From the NCBI GenBank assembly GCA_015178975.1, contig WHVD01000009.1, forward strand, positions 682,001 through 746,000: a stretch of 64,000 nucleotides of DNA, in the 5' to 3' direction. The notes under the pieces were generated by a model. That model had not been told where the DNA came from. It ran no database searches and saw only the letters and a list, made by a program, of their open reading frames with translations. The translations under genes were made by a program, and so were the position numbers. Shown piece by piece: positions 14,467 to 59,341 of this stretch. This DNA is from Hysterangium stoloniferum (taxonomy: Eukaryota; Basidiomycota; Agaricomycetes; Hysterangiales; Hysterangiaceae). Numbering within the stretch: position 1 is the stretch's first letter; the number at the start of each line of letters is the position of its first letter.

Positions 14467-14635
14467 ATTAAAGGTTGATAAATATCAACTGTTGATGAAG
14501 CCCAGGACACGATCTGAGACTACCAAAGCATCGAGTTCTACAGCACTCCAATCCGTGGCTCCCATTCCATCACCGAGAGTTATTCAGCCATCGTGAATTC
14601 CAGTTTCTCCTTTGACCAAAACTTGACGAGCTACG

Positions 14636-46351: not shown

Positions 46352-47176
46352 TGTTAGGATATGTACACGGTGGGTTTCCAGAGAAACCCACAGAATATCC
46401 GGTAGAACTTGGCTTCAGCTTATAGGCTGCACCCTCGTGAGATCATGTTGTCCAATTTCAGACAGGTGGACGGGAATCCCAGGGAGTCTGGGCAGGGTTC
46501 GTGGGTCGAGGGGTCGTAGGTCAGAGGTCGTGGGTCGAGAGGTCATGAGTCGAGATGAATAAGAGAGATAGATGTGCCAGAGCCCGTGGGCTCCGACTAG
46601 CGTGAGTGGTGTGATTCAAGTAGGAGTTTAGAGCCGAAAATGTATTAGATTACTGGGGGGAATCTAAGCTGATTTTCTGACTGGATTGTATTGTACAACA
46701 TCTGCCAGACTATATAGACCGTGGAATGAATGACATACCAAATCCAGTAATAATGAAACGAAACTAGCAAAACATAAAATGAGAATAGTAAACACCAGAT
46801 TTGGTGTTAGGGATGGGACGGAACGGAGCAGAGTCCGAATCATGACAAATCATAAACCATAATGGGAAACGGAGTGGGAGTGGAGTCTGAATCGTGACAG
46901 GTCATTTGACTAAAATGGGAATGGGGCTCTGTTAGAGGGAAGACAGGTTTTCCAAGCGGGGTCTGGTGATTGATGCATGGGACAGGGTCAGACATAGACA
47001 GGGACAGAGTCTGGTGGGTATTCTGGTGACTGAAACACAACATAACAAAGTCGAACGTAGACAAGTCTGACGTACGGAGTCCGGCAGGAAGTCCAGTAAA
47101 CTGACAATTGGTGCATATAGGGTGTGGGTGCGTATGAGTTACTGCCCGGAGTATGGCGGGAATTCTGGTCGTAACA
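46352..47176 (-). mobile_element. Solo LTR B2
   Basis: 825 bp, TGTTAGGATA...GTCGTAACA. Flanks AAACA and GAACA form a duplication with one change. U5 motif at 46405-46437. Compared with B1 the U5 hairpin has lost its CpGs on both arms, an older copy. Confidence 0.85.
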
Positions 47177-47195
47177 GAACATCACCAATGGAACA

Positions 47196-47525
47196 ATGGT
47201 TTCCAAAGTAACAATGGGTGGGTACAAAAGGAGCAACAGTTTCAAAAGGAGCAATGGTTTCCAAAGGAACAATGGGTACAAAAGGAGCAACAGTTTCAAA
47301 AGGAGGAATAGTTTCAAAAGGAGCAATGGTTTCAAAAGGAGCAATGGTTTCAAAAGGAGCAATGGTTTCAAAAGGAGCAATGGTTTCAAAAGGAGCAATG
47401 GTTTCAAAAGGAGCAATGGTTTCAAAAGGAGCAATGGTTTCAAAAGGAGCAATGGTTTCAAAAGGAGCAATGATTCAAAGAAAGCAATGGTTTCAGAAGA
47501 AGTAACTGTTTCAAAAGGAGCAACA
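47196..47525. repeat. 18-bp minisatellite of M1
   Basis: Unit CAAAAGGAGCAATGGTTT about 15 times, nearly perfect in 47310-47480. The same unit in inverse orientation is at 60535-60620 in M2. Long open frames on both strands here are repeat artefacts. Confidence 0.9.
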
Positions 47526-47929
47526 GTTCTGATTAGAAATTCAGTTGATTCTACTGGAATTGATTTACAATTGATACAGCATTGATACAGCATCAATTGA
47601 GAAGAGGAGAACATTCATTAAGCATTATGGAGCATTGATGAAGAATTGATGAGCATTGAAGAAACATTAATAGAGCATGGATTGAGCATTGATATTGTAT
47701 TGTATTTTGATATATTTTAATTTAATTTAATTTTTCCAATTTTATGCATTTTATTTTCATTTACTGTATTTTATTTCAATTTATCCTATTTTATTTTATT
47801 TTTAAACATTTTATTTTTATTTATTGTATTTTATCTTAATTATTCCCTTATTTTACTGAGATTTTCCCAGAAATCCTTGTAGGCCTCCAGGGATTTGCAA
47901 TATTACTCCAGGGAAATGGCATCAAAATA

Positions 47930-48227
47930 TGTACCTCCATGAATGCCACATGAAATGCTTTCGTGAGGGGATGTGGGAAATTTCCCCAGACAACTCATGT
48001 GAAATGTTTCTGTGAGGGACACAGGAAATGCTTTCATGCATCCAGAAAATACTCCCATGCACATCACAAAGTACTCCTGCAGCATCACAAAATGGTGTAA
48101 CAATACTTCTGCATATCACAAAATAGTTAATACTCCCACACATGTAAAAATACCTCTGTGCATTACAAAATACTTCCACATGTATCACAAATTACTCCCA
48201 CAGTGCCAAAAATACTTCCATGCTTGC
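47930..48227 (-). repeat. Degenerate 22-26-bp array of M1
   Basis: Repeated ACTCCCACA, ATACTTCC and TCACAAA blocks, the inverse of the array at 59697-60010. It continues at 49942-50000 after LTR E2. Confidence 0.75.
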
Positions 48228-48295
48228 TGTGAAGAGTGGTGGAAGTTCTGACCATTGTATATACAAAGAAATGAGTAGAATGGGAGGAAGGATGA

Positions 48296-49598
48296 TGTTA
48301 CGACTGGAATTCCCGCCAGACTCCAGGCACTAACTTATATGCACCCACACCCTATATGCACCAATTGTCAGTTTACCAGAATTCCCGCCGGACTCCGTAC
48401 ATCAGACTTGTCTACATTCAACTTCGTTACGTTGTGTATCAGTCACTGGAATACCCACCGGACTCCATCCTTGTCTATGTCCGACCTCATCCCATGCATA
48501 AGTCACCAGACCCCACTCAGAAAACCCGTCACCCCTCTAACTGAGCCCCATTCCCATTTTAGTCAAATGACCTGTCATGATTCAGACTCAGCTTCCGCTC
48601 CATTTCCCATTTTGGTTTATGATTTGTCATGATTCGGACTCCACTCTGTTCCGTCCCGTTCCTAATACCAAATTTGGTGTTTACTACTCTCGTTTTATGT
48701 TTTGCTAGTTTCGTTTCATTATTACTGGATTTGGTATGTCATTCATTCCACGGTCTATATAGTCTGGCAGATGTTGTACATACAATCCAGTCAGAAAATC
48801 AGCTTAGATTCCCCCCAGTAATCTAATACATTTTCCACTCTAAACTCCTACTTGAATTACACCGCTCACGCTAGTCAGAGCCCATGGGCTCTGGCACATC
48901 TATCTCTCTTATTTATCTTGACTCCCGACCTCTCAACCCACGACCTCCGACCTACGATCCCTCGACTCACAAACCCCACCCGGCCTCCCCGGGATTCCTG
49001 TCCACCTGTCTGAAATTGGATAACATGATCTCACAAGGGTGCAGCCTATAAGCTGAAGCCAAGTCCTACCAGATATTCTGTGGGTTTCTCCAGAAACCCG
49101 TTGTGTACTGTGAAGGGTATGCTTTTACCACAGTTTCATTGTGGTAAAACACTCCTTTTATTTTATTTATATTTTACATATTCTATTCATATTTTTCTAT
49201 CTTTCATATTCTTCGAATATTGCATATTTCATTAGTTCGAAGCATTGTGTATACTTGTGGGTGCACTCAGCACCAATTAGAACTCAGACACACTTTAACC
49301 CAAGAACCACCACTCGTAAGACACAAACTAGGTCTACTACGAGCGGTGATCAGGGTAACGTGTCAGCTACTACATAAGTAGCAATATCTGAACTACTAAA
49401 CACTTCTGGCCTCAAACTGTAATAGTCGAGGCCTCCACTCGAACCATCGCACTCGTTGACTCCTTCGTCATCTCGTGCTCTTTCTCTCACTTTCTCTTAT
49501 ATTGCACTGAATAGGTCAATATCCTTCCTTTCTACTCATTTCTTCGTATATAGAACGGTCTGAACTTCTGCCACTCTTCACATGTACGTACCCTAACA
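48296..49598 (+). mobile_element. Solo LTR B3 inside E2, split by E1
   Basis: TGTTACGACTGG...CCCTAACA, duplication GATGA at 48291-48295 and 49599-49603. U5 motif at 49034-49066. Removing E1 restores the family-B end. Confidence 0.9.
49109..49582. mobile_element. Solo LTR E1 inside B3
   Basis: 474 bp, TGTGAAGGGTATGC...CTCTTCACA, duplication TGTAC at 49104-49108 and 49583-49587. It has the hairpin TTTTACCACA/TGTGGTAAAA at its left end. It is the innermost and so youngest layer. Confidence 0.92.
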
Positions 49599-51016: not shown

Positions 51017-53133
51017 CACCAGCATGGTTCCTTGATTCCTTACACAGAAGGTGGATCACGTAGTTATGCTCTAGGGCAAATCAAAGCCTAAACAACCAAA
51101 CCTTTTCTGACTTGCAGGATATGATGGAGCAATATAATCCATTATAGAACTCTATCGCCAGGCACATGAGCAATTAATAACACAGGCAGAGACTCCAAGG
51201 TTACATGTCAGGCTGAGCTACAAAGCTTTTAATGACCCCAGATGGTACAATCTTCCAACCGGTGATGAACTTGCAGTCATTCTCCCTGGAGATGGTGATA
51301 CAGGTCATGGTGACCCAAGGGATATTATTGTTCAGAGGAGAGGGGGCCAGTTCCATCATGTCCATGATGCACAAGCCATTTATACACCCCTTTATTATGT
51401 CATGCTCTTTCCCAGGGGTGAGCGTGGTTGGTCATGGGATATTCCCTATGCAAATCAAAATTGGCAGCCCCAACCTGGACAGCAGGATGAAGGTGAAGAT
51501 GAAGAAAAAAGTCAGAAAGTGACCCAATGTGAATATTATGCCTATCGCCTATTTCCCAGAGCATACGAAGCCATGACCCTTTTTTATGCACAAAAGCTAT
51601 TCCAACAGTATATTGTCAATGCCTGGGCAGTAACAGAGCAGCGCAGATTGAGATTTCTCAGGGATAATCAACCAAGGTTACGTGCAGAACTCTACAACCA
51701 AGTGGTTGATGCATTTACAAATCAGGATGTCAGCACAGATGCCAATAGTATTGGTCAGAGGGTCATACTGCCTTCTACATTTACTGGCAGTTCAAGGGAT
51801 ATGAGACAAAGTTTACAAAATTCATTTGCAATTGCACGCAAGTATGGCAATGCCAGCTGCTTCATCACCATGACTGCTAATCCCAAGTGGAAGGAGGTTA
51901 CTGATGAATTGCTTCCTGGACAGACTGCTGCTGATCATCCTGATTTGGTCTCCCATGTCTTTGCTGCCAAGAAGGCTAAGCTGCTCAAGATGATCACAGA
52001 GGACCAGATCTTTGGTAGAACTGTAGCCCATATCCATGTCATTGAATTCCAAAAGTGGGGTCTTCCACACATGCACTGCCTCATATGGTTTGATGACCAG
52101 AATAAGCCAAGGACATCAGAAGATGTTGACTCATTTGTTTCTGCCTGTTTTCCAGATCCTGAAATACATCCCAGACTATTTAATTTAGTAGGACATCTCA
52201 TGACCCATGGCCCCTGTGGAGCTGAACATCCAAATGCTGCCTGTATGGTTGATAAGAAGTGCAGTAAATACTATCCAAAGGATTGGTGTGAAGCCACCAT
52301 TGTCAATGAGGAAGGCTATCCAACATATGCTCGCCCCAACAATGGAAGGGTTTATGAAACTCCCAAGTTTACATATGACAACAGACATGTTGTCCCTTAC
52401 TCCCCTATTTTGATTCTCACCTTTGAATGCCACATCAATGTAGAGTTGACCTTTACCAATAGGTCAATGAAGTACATGCATAAATACTGTTACAAGGGCC
52501 ATGATCGTACAACTATGGAATTCGGAACAACACCAGATGAGATTCAACAGTACCTTGATGCACATTATGTCAGTGCACATGAGTCTGTCTGGTGATTAAT
52601 GTGTAATGGACTCCATACCCAGGTTCCTGCAGTAATGGCACTTGGGATCCATCTTCCTGGAGAAAACACTGTACTTTTTGATGGTGATCAAGGTCCTGCT
52701 GAGGCTTTACAAAGGGCAGAGCATTCAGGGACAACTGTCATGGCTTATTTTGAAGCTAATGCCAAGGGTCTCATTGATTATAATGGACAGCGTGCCCAGG
52801 ACACATTTTATATGGACTTTCCTGAGTATTTCACATATGTACCCAAGAAGAAATCATGGAAGCCACGTCAAAGTGGGTTTTCCATAGGGCACATTCATTT
52901 TGTTAACATTGCCAGTGGGGAAAGATTCCACCTCCGTACATTGCTCACTGTTGTCAAAGGTGCCACCTCATTTGAACAGCTCAGGACCTTTCAGGGTGAG
53001 ACCTATCCTACATTTCAACAAGCCTGTGTAGCACATGGTTTGCTTGAAGATGACCGTCAGTGGCACATGTGCCTCACAGAAGCCAGTCACATAGAGTCTG
53101 GGTTTCAACTTCGCAGATTGTTTGCTATCATTT

Positions 53134-54189
53134 TGTTAAGTTCCCGAACAAAGCTCCACGGATAGTCCCGCGGAGGTTTCCGGTAACTATTCCGAACACA
53201 CACTTGCTTCCGGGGAATAGTCCCACGGAGTCCCCGGGCAATAGGTCCCGGGAAAGTTCCGGGGATTATTAGTACAAGGAACGGTGATATCAGAATAATT
53301 ACCAGAAAGATGTGGTGATACGACTGAGATGGACTTGGCTTCAGCTTATAGGCTGCGCCCTCGTACACTCATTCGGGTGTCCATATTTCGAGCTGACAGA
53401 ATGCATACAGAAAGATATAGATTCCGGAGTTCCCGTGGGAGTTCCGGGAATCGAGTGTGCAGACAGACAAGAGGACTAGAGACTGTTCAAGGATCAAACT
53501 TGTTCGGGGGAAAACTAGTTCGAGATTGAAACTGGATTCTAAGTACATGAATATAGCAGACTTATATAGACTGTGAAATGTAATAATACCAAATCCGGTA
53601 TTAATGAGAGGCAGAACTATTAAACATAAAACCAAACAAGTAAATACTAAACTGGGAATTAGGGATGGAACAGAACGGGAGTGGAGAACGAATCATGACA
53701 GATCATTTAACCATAACTGGAGCGGGGCTCAGTTAGAGGGGTTCCGGAAGTCCGGTCGGAGTCCGGTGACTTGGTGCACAAGATAGTGTCGGGTATAGAC
53801 AGGCTTGATGTGCAGGAGGTCCGGTGGAGTCCGGTGGGTTTTCCAATGACTGGTGTGTGAGATGCAGAGACAGATAACAGGAGCGGGGTTCTATGCTCTG
53901 TTAGAGGGGTTCCAGGAGTCCGGTCGGAGTCCGGTGACTGGTACATAAGACACAGAGTGTCGGGTGTATGTAGGGTGGAGTCCGGAGTCCGGAGGAGTCC
54001 GAGGACTGGTGTATGAGACATGGAGGGTTAGGTGCAGACAGGTGGGGTGCGTACAGAGAGTCAGGCATAAACAAGTTGACATACGGGCTCCCGTGGGAAC
54101 TCCGGTTGTTACTATACAATATAGAGGGTCAGGAGCATGTAGGACGGGGTCCGGGGCCCGGAGGCCGGTGGGTTTCCCAGTTCCTGACA
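53134..54189 (-). repeat. Left LTR of element A (1056 bp)
   Basis: Plus-strand reading TGTTAAGTTCCCGAAC...CCTGACA, U5 motif at 53331-53363. Followed by GTACCCTCCCC, the complement of the polypurine tract. Confidence 0.88.
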
Positions 54190-54502
54190 GTACCCTCCCC
54201 GACTATGCCATTGTAAACCTACATGCATAAGTTGAAACCCACTAACCTCTCTCTAGCCGCATTATGCATTATCTGTGGACCCCTGTAAATGTTGGAGTAA
54301 CAACTATGCTATAGTAAACCTGCATAAGTTGAAACCCATATCCTCTCTACCCACTAACCTCTCTCTAGCCACACTATCCGTGGACTCCGCACCTTTGGAC
54401 TCACTTCATCATTCCCTGTCACCCTATGTCTCTCTTTGCCTTTCTAGCTCTTTGTACCACACTCGACTCTCAGTCCACTAAGTGGCAGATGAGTTAAGTA
54501 TC
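54190..54502. repeat. Left interior of element A
   Basis: No coding region. Two imperfect direct repeats (GCATAAGTTGAAACCCA and CACTAACCTCTCTCTAGCC) at about 54229-54262 and 54314-54372. The same role as the leader next to a polypurine tract; otherwise unassigned. Confidence 0.6.
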
Positions 54503-55224
54503 TGTTAAGAACTGGAAACTGACTAATGTCGGTGGCCGACGGGGGCCGATCGGAAGGACTTGGCTTCAGCTTATGTGCTGCGCCCTCGCAAATATCCGTA
54601 GGATGTCCTTAAATTTCGGGCGGGCGAAGACTAGTCCTAACGAGTACCTTTTGGCGTGATACCGATCGGAATCGAAGGACAAGTCAAGTGTCGGGCCAAG
54701 GGGTCGGGGCCGAGAGTGGGCGAGCGCACGCGAAGGCGGAAGGGAGATTCTTCTAGTATGAGACTGCTACAGACGTATGAGGGTATTCTGAGTCGATATT
54801 CTGATTGCCTAGTAACTACAATTACAGTGGGTTCATATACAAGTAACAGGCGTCTGGAAAATACTAATGGGGAGAAAGGCGGAACACGGTATTAACAATA
54901 AGCTTGACTAGGAACGGGAAGTTTATGATTAGTTCGGAGGCCGATGATAACCGAGAGCGGGATTACGGTAAAAGGAAATGGTTCAAGGACTACAAATATA
55001 GATAGACATATGCGAAACATAAGATTGAACGGATCAACATAATAAAGGGGACGTATCAAAGTTTGACCAGACAATACGAGTTATTTTGACGTGGGCGTAA
55101 ATGGAGTTTGATCTTCGCGAAACATTCGTCAGCTTCGGTGCCGATGGTTTCCGAGAGGATGACTTGAAACGTTGACAAGTGGCGATAACCTCGGGGCCGA
55201 TAGGGTTGCGACACGGTCGTAACA
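54503..55224 (-). mobile_element. Solo LTR D3 inside element A
   Basis: 722 bp, TGTTAAGAACTGG...GGTCGTAACA, inverse to D1 and D2; duplication GTATC at 54498-54502 and 55225-55229. U5 motif at 54556-54588. CpG-rich and therefore young. Confidence 0.92.
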
Positions 55225-55229
55225 GTATC

Positions 55230-56578
55230 CATCCTTTCAGCCTCCTGCCCATCATGACCCTTTTGGGTTATTCCTCGGAATCCATGGACCTCAGTGGTAG
55301 TAACCTAGACTCCACTGGACCCCGACCCCCTTTATGCTCCCTGTTGTAAGAGCATTACTTCCTCGGGTCCCATGGACTTCCCCAACCGGTCATTATTCCA
55401 TGGAACTCTCGGACTCTACAGACCCTTAGATGACTTGTCCTCCAAGTTGTCTTTGCTCTTGGGTTGTTGTTCACTCCTCCAGTTCTGTGGCAATCCTGCT
55501 GAGGACTTCTTCGTCACCAGCACATTCTCGGAGCCCTCGGACTTCCCGGGTCTCACCCAGGGTATTCTCGGAGTCCCCGGTTCTCATATAATATATCCCA
55601 GAACCCATGGACCTCCCAGATCTACACCCTTCAGCCCATTTGCAGTTCTATCCAAACTTCTTGATGTCACCAATGTATTCTCGGAACCCTAGGACTTCCT
55701 GGTTCTCATCCACTGTGTTCCCGGAACCTCCGGATTTCCCGGTTCTCATCCAGGAACCCATGATACAGACCATTCAAAGTTTTGGACAATTCCTGCTTGC
55801 CATTGGAATATCCGTGGCTTTTCCCCATGTTTGTTCCTTGTGATTTAAGGTTGACCTGCCCTTGGAACCCCTGTGGCTTTTCCACAACATCTGGTTCCTT
55901 CAGGTTTTTATGTCTTGGGCACTTACCCTGCCTGTGGACACTGCGACCTTTGACCACTCTCACTCTGCCATGTCCCTTTGCCTTTGGGCAACTCCCGGTC
56001 CATTGTGACATCTCTGGATGTTTTCATCACCTGTCTCCTACCTCTCGGAATCCCTGGACCCCTCAGATCTTCCGAACTATGTTCCGGACTTTTCCGGACT
56101 TTCAGCCCTTGTTGGATTTTTCGACATTTTGGATTTTGGACCTTTTTCAGAGGTTTCAACTTACTTTCAAGTATCCAGTATGTCTACAATCTCCTCCAAG
56201 ACCCCTGGCCTTTCCATGTGCCATCCCGCTTCCCGGGATTTATTTTCCCACGGAATTGCGTACTAGTGAGCACCTTCTTTGAGGTGTGCACATGCCAACA
56301 GCCTGGGCTCCGCCCAGACTCCTGCTAGCACTCTGTGCTTCTGTCACTTTGTCAGTTTCCCAGACCTTTCTGTGGACCCATCGCTTTTGTGTGGGTTCTC
56401 TGTCCTGCTTTTGGACTCCGTCTCTACTTCCACCACTATCTGTCTTCAAGAGCTGTCTGTACCATCACTTGCTCTTGGTCAAATTTTCCCTTCCAGATCA
56501 TACAATTCATTGACACATACATGTAACCAACAAACGTATTATGTTCCTATGGCCTCTATGGGACTTCGGCCTTAAGGG
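55230..56578 (-). pseudogene. Decayed antisense accessory gene of element A
   Basis: On the minus strand, 56470-56250 aligns with exons 2-3 of the Zn2Cys6-like gene of element H: VVEVETESKSRTENP corresponds to AVEVESESKGEAGSP, and TEC-stop-QESGRSPGCW corresponds to TDCHWKSGWGLGCW, followed by CACACCTCAAAG and GGTGCTCAC in both. Stops and one-base gaps break the frame. The rest (56240-55230) is a Ser/Gly-rich minus-strand sequence with repeats of a TTCCCGGTTCTCATCCA-like unit (plus strand). It runs opposite to the direction implied by the adjoining polypurine tract, as in C and H. Confidence 0.55.
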
Positions 56579-56588
56579 GAGGGTACTG

Positions 56589-57642
56589 TCAGGAACCGGG
56601 AAACCCGCCGGCCTCCGGGCCCCGGACCCCGTCCTACATGCTCCTGACCCTCTATATTGTATAGTAACAACCGGAGTTCCCACGGGAGCCCGTATGTCAA
56701 CTTGTTTATGCCTGACTCTCTGTACGCACCCCACCTGTCTGCACCTAACCCTCCATGTCTCATACACCAGTCCTCGGACTCCTCCGGACTCCGGACTCCA
56801 CCCTACATACACCCGACACTCTGTGTCTTATGTACCAGTCACCGGACTCCGACCGGACTCCTGGAACCCCTCTAACAGAGCATAGAACCCCGCTCCTGTT
56901 ATCTGTCTCTGCATCTCACACACCAGTCATTGGAAAACCCACCGGACTCCACCGGACCTCCTGCACATCAAGCCTGTCTATACCCGACACTATCTTGTGC
57001 ACCAAGTCACCGGACTCCGACCGGACTTCCGGAACCCCTCTAACTGAGCCCCGCTCCAGTTATGGTTAAATGATCTGTCATGATTCGTTCTCCACTCCCG
57101 TTCTGTTCCATCCCTAATTCCCAGTTTAGTATTTACTTGTTTGGTTTTATGTTTAATAGTTCTGCCTCTCATTAATACCGGATTTGGTATTATTACATTT
57201 CACAGTCTATATAAGTCTGCTATATTCATGTACTTAGAATCCAGTTTCAATCTCGAACTAGTTTTCCCCCGAACAAGTTTGATCCTTGAACAGTCTCTAG
57301 TCCTCTTGTCTGTCTGCACACTCGATTCCCGGAACTCCCACGGGAACTCCGGAATCTATATCTTTCTGTATGCATTCTGTCAGCTCGAAATATGGACACC
57401 CGAATGAGTGTACGAGGGCGCAGCCTATAAGCTGAAGCCAAGTCCATCTCAGTCGTATCACCACATCTTTCTGGTAATTATTCTGATATCACCGTTCCTT
57501 GTACTAATAATCCCCGGAACTTTCCCGGGACCTATTGCCCGGGGACTCCGTGGGACTATTCCCCGGAAGCAAGTGTGTGTTCGGAATAGTTACCGGAAAC
57601 CTCCACGGGACTATCCGTGGAGCTTTGTTCAGGAACTTAACA
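56589..57642 (+). repeat. Right LTR of element A (1054 bp), with polypurine tract
   Basis: GGGGAGGGTAC (56578-56588) precedes TGTCAGGAACC...GAACTTAACA. It is the inverse of the left LTR; small open frames are identical in translation. U5 motif at 57413-57445. Confidence 0.88.
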
Positions 57643-59341
57643 CATTTTGACCATGACCTCCCCTGCACAACCCCAGGAACTCTGGAATGACTTCAAAGTA
57701 TTTCTTTGTGATGATTTGGAGTTCATACTTCGGCAAACACATGGCATTGATGATCCATCACCAAACCAAGTTTATGACTTTGGTCTCTATGAAATTGATA
57801 GGATCCTATGCTATTCTGGAAAGTCCCTCTCACATTATCCAACCATGCCAAACTGCACTGATGATTGGGATGGGATTGTTGGCAACCGTCTCATTAAGGA
57901 GCAAAAGAATTATAATGTGCAACATGAGCTTGCCAGTGCCCAAGCCAATCTTGAAAAGTGCAATTCTGAACAACAAGCTGCCTTTGAGACTATCATGAAG
58001 GCAGTGGATGAGCAGCAGGAGGGCAAATTGTTTTTTGTGAATGGTCCAGGTGGCACTGGCAAGTCCTTTGTATGGAATACTTTGGCACATGCATGTAGGG
58101 CCAAGGGCTACATTGTGCTTTGTGTGGCATCTTCTGGAATTGCATCAATGATTCTCAAGGGTGGTCGTACTTCTCACAGTACATTTTCAATCCCTGTTCC
58201 CTGTGAAAAGGATGCTCTATGTCATATCAAAAAGGGTTCAGAAATAGCAGAGCTCATGAAGAATGTCTGACTGATTATCTGGGATGAAGTTCCAATGCAG
58301 TCACGTTTCACATGTGAGGCAGTTGACAGAACCCTGAGGGATTTATTAGACAAGGAGGATCTTCCCTTTGGAGGGATTCCTGTTGCCTGGGGAGGTGACT
58401 TTCAGCAGACTTTGCCTGTTGTACCAAAGGGTTCAAAAGAACAGATCATTGGACAATGTATCCAGAAATCAGAACTGTGGAAGGATATCAAGGTACTCTT
58501 CTTGAAAAAGAATATGCAGGTGGACCAGGATGATCCAGACAGTCAACAGTTTGCTCAGTGGCTATTGGATATAGGCCATGGAAAGGATTTACCTTTGGAT
58601 CATACAATGGATATCCCTCCTCATATGATCTGTGGTCCAGAAATGTCTAATCTCATTGCTGAGATATATCCAGACATCCATGTGGATAGAGACCAAAGAG
58701 ATTGGCAAGATGAAGACTTCTTAGACCGGGCAATTCTGTGTCCAAGGAATTCAGAAGTAGATGAGATTAATTCAGAACTTCTGAATAAATTCCCTGGGGA
58801 GAGTCGTGTATACCACAGTGCTGATACTGCAGAGGGAGACAGTGAGACAGAGATGTATCCTGTAGAGTATTTGAACAGCCTGAATTTTGGTGGAATCTCA
58901 CCAAGTCGACTTGAGGTGAAGCCAGGAGTGCCATTGATGCTATTACGGAACATAGATCCACAGAGAGGGCTTTTCAATGGGACACGATTGCGATTGGTGA
59001 AAATGGAAAATCATTTGCTTCAAGTGCAGATCCTAACTGGACCATGTACTGGAAAAATGGCATTTCTTTCACGGATCAAAATAATTACAAATGATAATCA
59101 ACTGCCATTTAAACTGCATCGTATTCAGTTTCCAGTGCGGTTAGCATTTGCAATGACAATTAACAAGTCACAGGGACAATCTTTGAAAGTGGTAGGAATA
59201 GATTTGAGAATGGCAGTGTTTGGACATGGGCAATTGTATGTGGGACTTTCAAGGGGAAGAAGTTGGAATAGGATAAAAATATTATTAAAGGAGACAAAGA
59301 GAACAGCAAATATAGTGTACAAAGATGTATTATTAGATTGA

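Follow-up and report, generated by a model that had tools for sequence, protein, structure and literature searches.

A Ty3-type unit with inverted LTRs and two outward U5 ends within one target duplication in Hysterangium stoloniferum: probable integration of an aberrant cDNA

Architecture of the Unit and Its Insertion Site

The window analyzed here, a stretch of 64,000 nucleotides from the basidiomycete Hysterangium stoloniferum (contig WHVD01000009.1 of assembly GCA_015178975.1), contains at 51402-59341 a Helitron that carries in-frame stops and that is interrupted by a retroelement-derived unit at 53134-57642. The left part of the interrupted gene (51402-53133, + strand) shows one in-frame stop between the open reading frame (ORF) 51402-52595 and the ORF from 52599 on, and the right part (57648-59341, + strand) corresponds to a PIF1-like helicase split into two ORFs. 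Pfam assigned Helitron_like_N to the upstream ORF and PIF1 to the downstream ORF, and the 178-aa piece immediately left of the insertion gave no Pfam match. The whole unit is bounded by a perfect duplication of CATTT (left copy 53129-53133, right copy 57643-57647) and, judged by the ORF coordinates, the Helitron frame is in register once the unit and one CATTT are removed. The same stretch is found uninterrupted elsewhere: the 24-mer representing the empty site matches 121 places in the genome with at most three mismatches, and one exact copy (C515:267321-267344) is present among the 100 of these matches that were listed.

The unit is built from two 1,056-bp long terminal repeats (LTRs) in opposite orientation with their U5 ends outward, the left one at 53134-54189 (- strand) and the right one at 56587-57642 (+ strand); the right LTR reads TGTCAGG...CTTAACA and the left LTR is its reverse complement. 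The polypurine tract (PPT) GGGGAGGGTAC adjoins the inner side of both, at 56576-56586 (+ strand), where the purine run AAGGGGAGGG starts from 56574, and, reversed and reaching no further than the first G of its G-run, at 54190-54200 (- strand). The arms including the PPT, 53134-54200 and 56576-57642, align without gaps over 1,067 nt each with 99.6% identity, and the sequence GGGGAGGGTACTGTCAGG, found twice in the window at 54183-54200 (- strand) and 56576-56593 (+ strand), did not occur in 100 shuffles. At 54200/54201 the reversed PPT is joined to forward internal sequence (54201-54502, + strand), which is followed by a solo LTR of another abundant family at 54503-55224 (- strand, judged from its ends) and then by the remaining forward 3' internal region (55225-56575, + strand). 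This nested solo LTR has its own duplication GTATC (54498-54502 and 55225-55229) and arrived after the insertion of the two-U5 unit. Two features of Ty3-type elements are thus present, namely a short perfect target duplication and a PPT adjoining the 3' LTR; however, in place of the direct LTRs of a Ty3-type provirus, with one U3 and one U5 outer end, the unit carries LTRs in inverted orientation and a U5 at each outer end.

The sequence-only reading of this locus had described near-identical LTRs in opposite orientation, a PPT or its complement on the inner side of both, U5 at both outer ends, CATTT around the whole unit and a restored Helitron frame, and each of these observations is borne out at the positions given above. 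It had further proposed a palindromic cDNA with two 3' halves, and of this proposal the aberrant two-U5 cDNA stands but the halves do not. Inward of the target duplication the left arm consists of PPT and LTR only, and the remainder is a single 1.66-kb 3' piece. Beyond the PPT, toward the centre, left and right therefore do not match, and the unit has a 3' end on either side without being made of two 3' halves. The sequence-only reading did not include this asymmetry or the nested solo LTR.

Relatives and the Autonomous Element

The family to which the LTRs belong has 376 LTR starts in the genome at up to two mismatches, 100 of which were listed. The PPT-LTR junction of the family is found 21 times at up to one mismatch, two of these belonging to the unit. 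A genome search for inverted LTR pairs with two PPTs had been suggested before, and among the 21 junctions the unit's own pair is the only one in which a reversed PPT is followed by a forward PPT within 10 kb. The whole 3' internal region is kept at 14 places including the unit; all 13 others were compared and six were classed as full-length. These six relatives have direct LTRs, perfect 5-bp duplications and lengths of 4.6-5.5 kb, and 0 to 5 differences separate the two LTRs in each of five full-length copies. A further copy (L026) with direct LTRs and a perfect duplication has LTRs differing at 54/1,053 positions and is older. Since a perfect 5-bp duplication accompanies all seven direct-LTR relatives with both outer ends intact (the six and L026), 5 bp can be regarded as the signature of the family's integrase. 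The element at L020 1165-5980, which has direct LTRs and repeats on its right side the left flank GTTTGGGAGGTACC, was left out of this count because the end of its 3' LTR is lost. Another copy of the same family (L022 3179-4384) carries bases 1-205 of the 3' LTR beside a reversed LTR piece 1027-32.

In L010, the one family member examined for coding capacity, the longest stop-to-stop frame comprises 182 aa and there is no gag-pol-sized frame, from which we infer that the full-length copies depend on proteins supplied in trans. An autonomous element encoding protease, reverse transcriptase, RNase H, integrase and a chromodomain exists in the genome and shares parts of LTR and interior with the unit's family. 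Its family has 152 exact PPT-LTR sites, and of the 100 listed 22 lie less than 10 kb from a contig start, 20 of the 22 on the + strand, a clustering that perhaps reflects end-directed insertion or assembly breaks. A separate observation concerns 33 identical bases shared by L010 (element positions 827-859) and L019 (3255-3287) in the LTRs of two families that are otherwise about 73% alike over a 190-bp stretch. A motif related to this match is present in the nested LTR (54553-54588), and 18 of its bases recur, reversed, at the junction of the C212 provirus described below.

Evidence for One Source and One Integration

The two arms differ at only four of 1,057 aligned positions, all of them CpG transitions, with the derived state occurring twice on each arm. 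Compared with the other LTRs they share 23 non-majority states, two of which are indels, and none of the other LTRs in the comparison comes nearer than 12 sites, the nearest differing at 12/936 (a partial LTR) and 18/1,055. The shared states together with the distance of all other LTRs indicate that both arms derive from one source. Taken together, the shared duplication, the exact LTR ends, the empty site and the single source of the arms point to one integration of a two-U5 cDNA, and they argue for the earlier view that a single integrase event inserted an aberrant two-U5 cDNA and that the unit did not arise from recombined insertions. We hold with high confidence that a non-coding, chromovirus-related Ty3-type element gave rise to a linear two-U5 cDNA and that integrase acting in trans inserted it into the Helitron in one step with a 5-bp duplication.

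The Junction and the Internal Purine Tract

Aligned with the full-length copies, the unit consists of a reversed LTR and PPT, followed by the forward element from an internal point, termed X, to its 3' end; the 5' end of the element, where a primer binding site would be expected, is missing. X is separated from the LTR by 1,662 nt in four of the six full-length copies and by 1,679 and 1,681 nt in the other two. Where the full-length copies read CAAAGAGGGGAGTAAC and then GACTATG (one copy being one A shorter), the unit reads GTACCCTCCCC and then GACTATG. On its inner side the left arm breaks off at the first G in the G-run of the PPT. Internal sequence then sets in 3-4 nt past AAAGAGGGGAG, immediately after the purine tract found inside the full-length relatives, and a single base, the C at 54200, fits both sides. 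X thus lies 3-4 nt past a purine run, and likewise the LTR starts 3 nt past the run of the PPT. Each of the six full-length relatives has only two purine runs of at least 8 nt, the 3' PPT and this internal tract. By our own count, with the test chosen post hoc, a random point in the 3,381 internal bases would fall within 4 bases of X about 0.3% of the time.

The internal tract is located near the centre of the element, at 2762 of 5,493 nt in L010, and this second purine tract is present in autonomous and non-autonomous elements alike. It lies within a 101-bp stretch that is 84% identical to the autonomous pol, where it falls at the peptide PKEGSNDYA between RNase H (ending at residue 645) and the zinc-binding domain of integrase (starting at 771). 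A purine run of 10-14 nt is kept in 22 of the 23 tblastn matches that reach the site in the fetched loci and the window, matches that share descent and many of which are copies of one family; AAAGAGGAAAG and AAAGAGGAGGAAAG occur among these 22 where the protein differs, and the tract is missing from one diverged pol match, 60% identical, at window position 14484. In the autonomous pol stretch, counting the codons of the tract itself, GGG accounts for three of 41 Gly codons and AGY for six of 63 Ser codons, and the tract is written with these rare codons, GGG and AGC. Under a Markov model of the interior, a mean of 0.46 purine runs of at least 10 nt is expected by chance and 0.23 with GGGG. A sliding conservation analysis of three diverged copies did not single out the tract window, fractions of 0.165, 0.363 and 0.362 of all windows being as good or better. 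We regard the internal tract as a putative central PPT of this Ty3-type lineage.

Other Inverted-LTR Candidates

Inverted pairs of at least 150 bp number 26 in 332 kb. In the 12 units besides that of the window whose borders were inspected among these 26 pairs, none combined two outer LTR ends with one shared duplication. Three inverted pairs were rejected as candidates. The pair at C113 (L036) consists of two solo LTRs 2 kb apart with their own duplications CGTTA and GCTAT, the pair in L030 has the separate duplications GTTGG and AGTAC, and in the window pair at 46363-49108 the left LTR is bordered by AAACA/GAACA, with one mismatch.

At L019 3344-6399 (C367) a reversed LTR plus GT abuts TTGAAACCC, part of the internal region of the unit's family, at a point away from the internal purine tract. 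An autonomous element reaching the contig start interrupts the left LTR at position 638, and the two arms of this candidate differ at 11/471 positions and match some other copies at least as closely as they match each other. It is a possible second inverted-LTR unit of the same family, and alternatively a reversed LTR may have been inserted later. In the autonomous family, one pair of a reversed followed by a forward PPT within 10 kb is found among the 100 sites listed of 152. This pair belongs to a provirus at C212:642379-647586 (L038-L049), which has CAGTC on both sides. Its 3' end is present a second time inside the element in inverted form, and this extra copy meets, with an overlap of a few bases, 5' sequence that reads by eye as gag and gave no Pfam match. 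The reversed pol continues straight through the internal tract with no switch there. The provirus has two internal deletions relative to the C367 copy, and a later rearrangement may have produced its form. This provirus suggests that duplication-bounded proviruses with inverted extra ends recur in this genome and that the switch can lie elsewhere than at the internal tract.

Proposed Mechanism and Alternatives

The structure, the duplication, the empty site, the single source of the arms and the position of the junction are shown by the sequences, and from them we infer the following mechanism. On the strand read inward from the right LTR, minus-strand sequence extends from U5 across the PPT to X, and plus-sense PPT-U3-R-U5 follows. 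Minus-strand DNA in the particle would be made from U5 inward, through the PPT and up to the internal purine tract at X, and its 3' end at X would then be continued by plus-sense PPT-U3-R-U5. One possible route would be a switch of the enzyme, at the PPT, onto minus-strand DNA, which could be the 5' part of the same strand or a sister strand; another would be the joining of the minus-strand end to displaced plus-strand strong-stop DNA still bearing the PPT primer. Completion of the second strand would result in a linear two-U5 cDNA. Both breakpoints lie at the two polypurine tracts, and we therefore connect the copying error with the priming of plus strands at the 3' PPT and at a putative central PPT. 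We give this link an even chance or slightly better, the evidence for it being one junction noticed after the fact. As a whole, integration of a two-U5 cDNA whose error was tied to plus-strand priming at both purine tracts is probably the best explanation of the unit.

The alternative that survives best, although we consider it unlikely, is host end-joining, in which a 3' piece broken at the plus-strand discontinuity of the internal tract was joined to the short PPT-LTR duplex of a sister cDNA and then integrated. Both ends lie at expected plus-strand starts or primer edges, and the single shared base at the junction agrees with joining, an overlap that end-joining and a template switch explain equally well. 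However, this route requires two breaks as well as two cDNA molecules from the same source, and the arms are identical except for CpG decay, which a single molecule fits at least as well; strand switching is favoured over the end-joining of cDNA pieces. Far less probable is the later alteration, by gene conversion or inversion, of a normal direct-LTR provirus at CATTT. This DNA is rich in repeats and inverted pairs are frequent in it, as the 26 described above show, but one LTR alone would have had to flip with breakpoints exactly at the duplication and the PPT edge, an additional reversed PPT would also be required, and on the left the unit borders CATTT with a clean U5 end.

Marginally less credible than a later inversion is intermolecular autointegration, in which the processed U3 end of one cDNA attacked the interior of another and left two U5 ends. 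Inverted LTRs and two free U5 ends would indeed result; however, the terminal ...CCTGACA with its CA end would be joined directly to the target sequence, whereas the unit has 11 nt of reversed PPT in between, and a finished cDNA end is not expected to bear the PPT unless the donor was unprocessed with its primer kept. Recombination of two independent insertions is very improbable: C113 does provide a pair of solo LTRs, 2 kb apart and oriented to each other as here, but each of those has its own duplication and they differ at 32/1,055 positions, whereas the unit has one shared duplication and 4/1,057 differences. A foldback chimaera or a collapse in reads or assembly has an equally negligible chance, for foldback reads make perfect inverted copies, but here four sites distinguish the arms, the two sides do not mirror each other, the flanking sequences are not alike, the spacer holds a nested LTR and the duplication is exact.

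If integration of a two-U5 cDNA is correct, integrase is able to insert such a molecule in a living genome, and an inverted-LTR unit within one duplication is not necessarily the scar of a recombination event. Annotation that seeks direct LTRs would overlook such units. With its two U5 ends and an error at purine tracts of the kind that prime DNA, the unit can be read as a fossil trace of the way in which the error may have arisen. More tentatively, and with a chance that we place somewhat below even, chromoviruses of the H. stoloniferum genome may use a central PPT, and switching between PPT sites may yield insertable two-U5 cDNAs whose fossils map the starts of plus strands.

Comparison With Known Systems

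With Ty3/gypsy chromoviruses and their non-autonomous derivatives the unit shares TG...CA LTRs, a PPT adjoining the 3' LTR and a 5-bp duplication, and it has sequence in common with the autonomous reverse transcriptase-RNase H-integrase-chromodomain element of the genome. It differs from them in its inverted LTRs and two U5 ends, and the family member examined (L010) is without a gag-pol-sized frame. Large palindromes in unintegrated retroviral DNA were reportedly described by Olsen and Swanstrom in 1985, who are said to have ascribed the inverted LTRs to a strand switch during reverse transcription. In contrast to those palindromes, reportedly unintegrated, the unit is integrated with a duplication and has its breakpoints at purine tracts. 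In autointegration products (PMC2644782), LTR ends are likewise joined to internal sequence, whereas the joined end here retains the PPT. Among the literature matches listed, titles and opening lines of abstracts describe no integrated two-U5 provirus. The unit is best read as an integrated two-U5 cDNA, and its junction at purine tracts is the new and testable part of this work. The central PPTs of HIV-1 and Ty1 (PMC5371799, PMC3187697) are likewise second purine tracts near the middle of the element; the tract found here lies, in the autonomous element, between RNase H and integrase in pol, and its function is putative. For yeast Ty3 no central PPT has been identified according to a review (PMC5371799), and the unit directs attention to a testable putative central PPT in a Ty3-type lineage.
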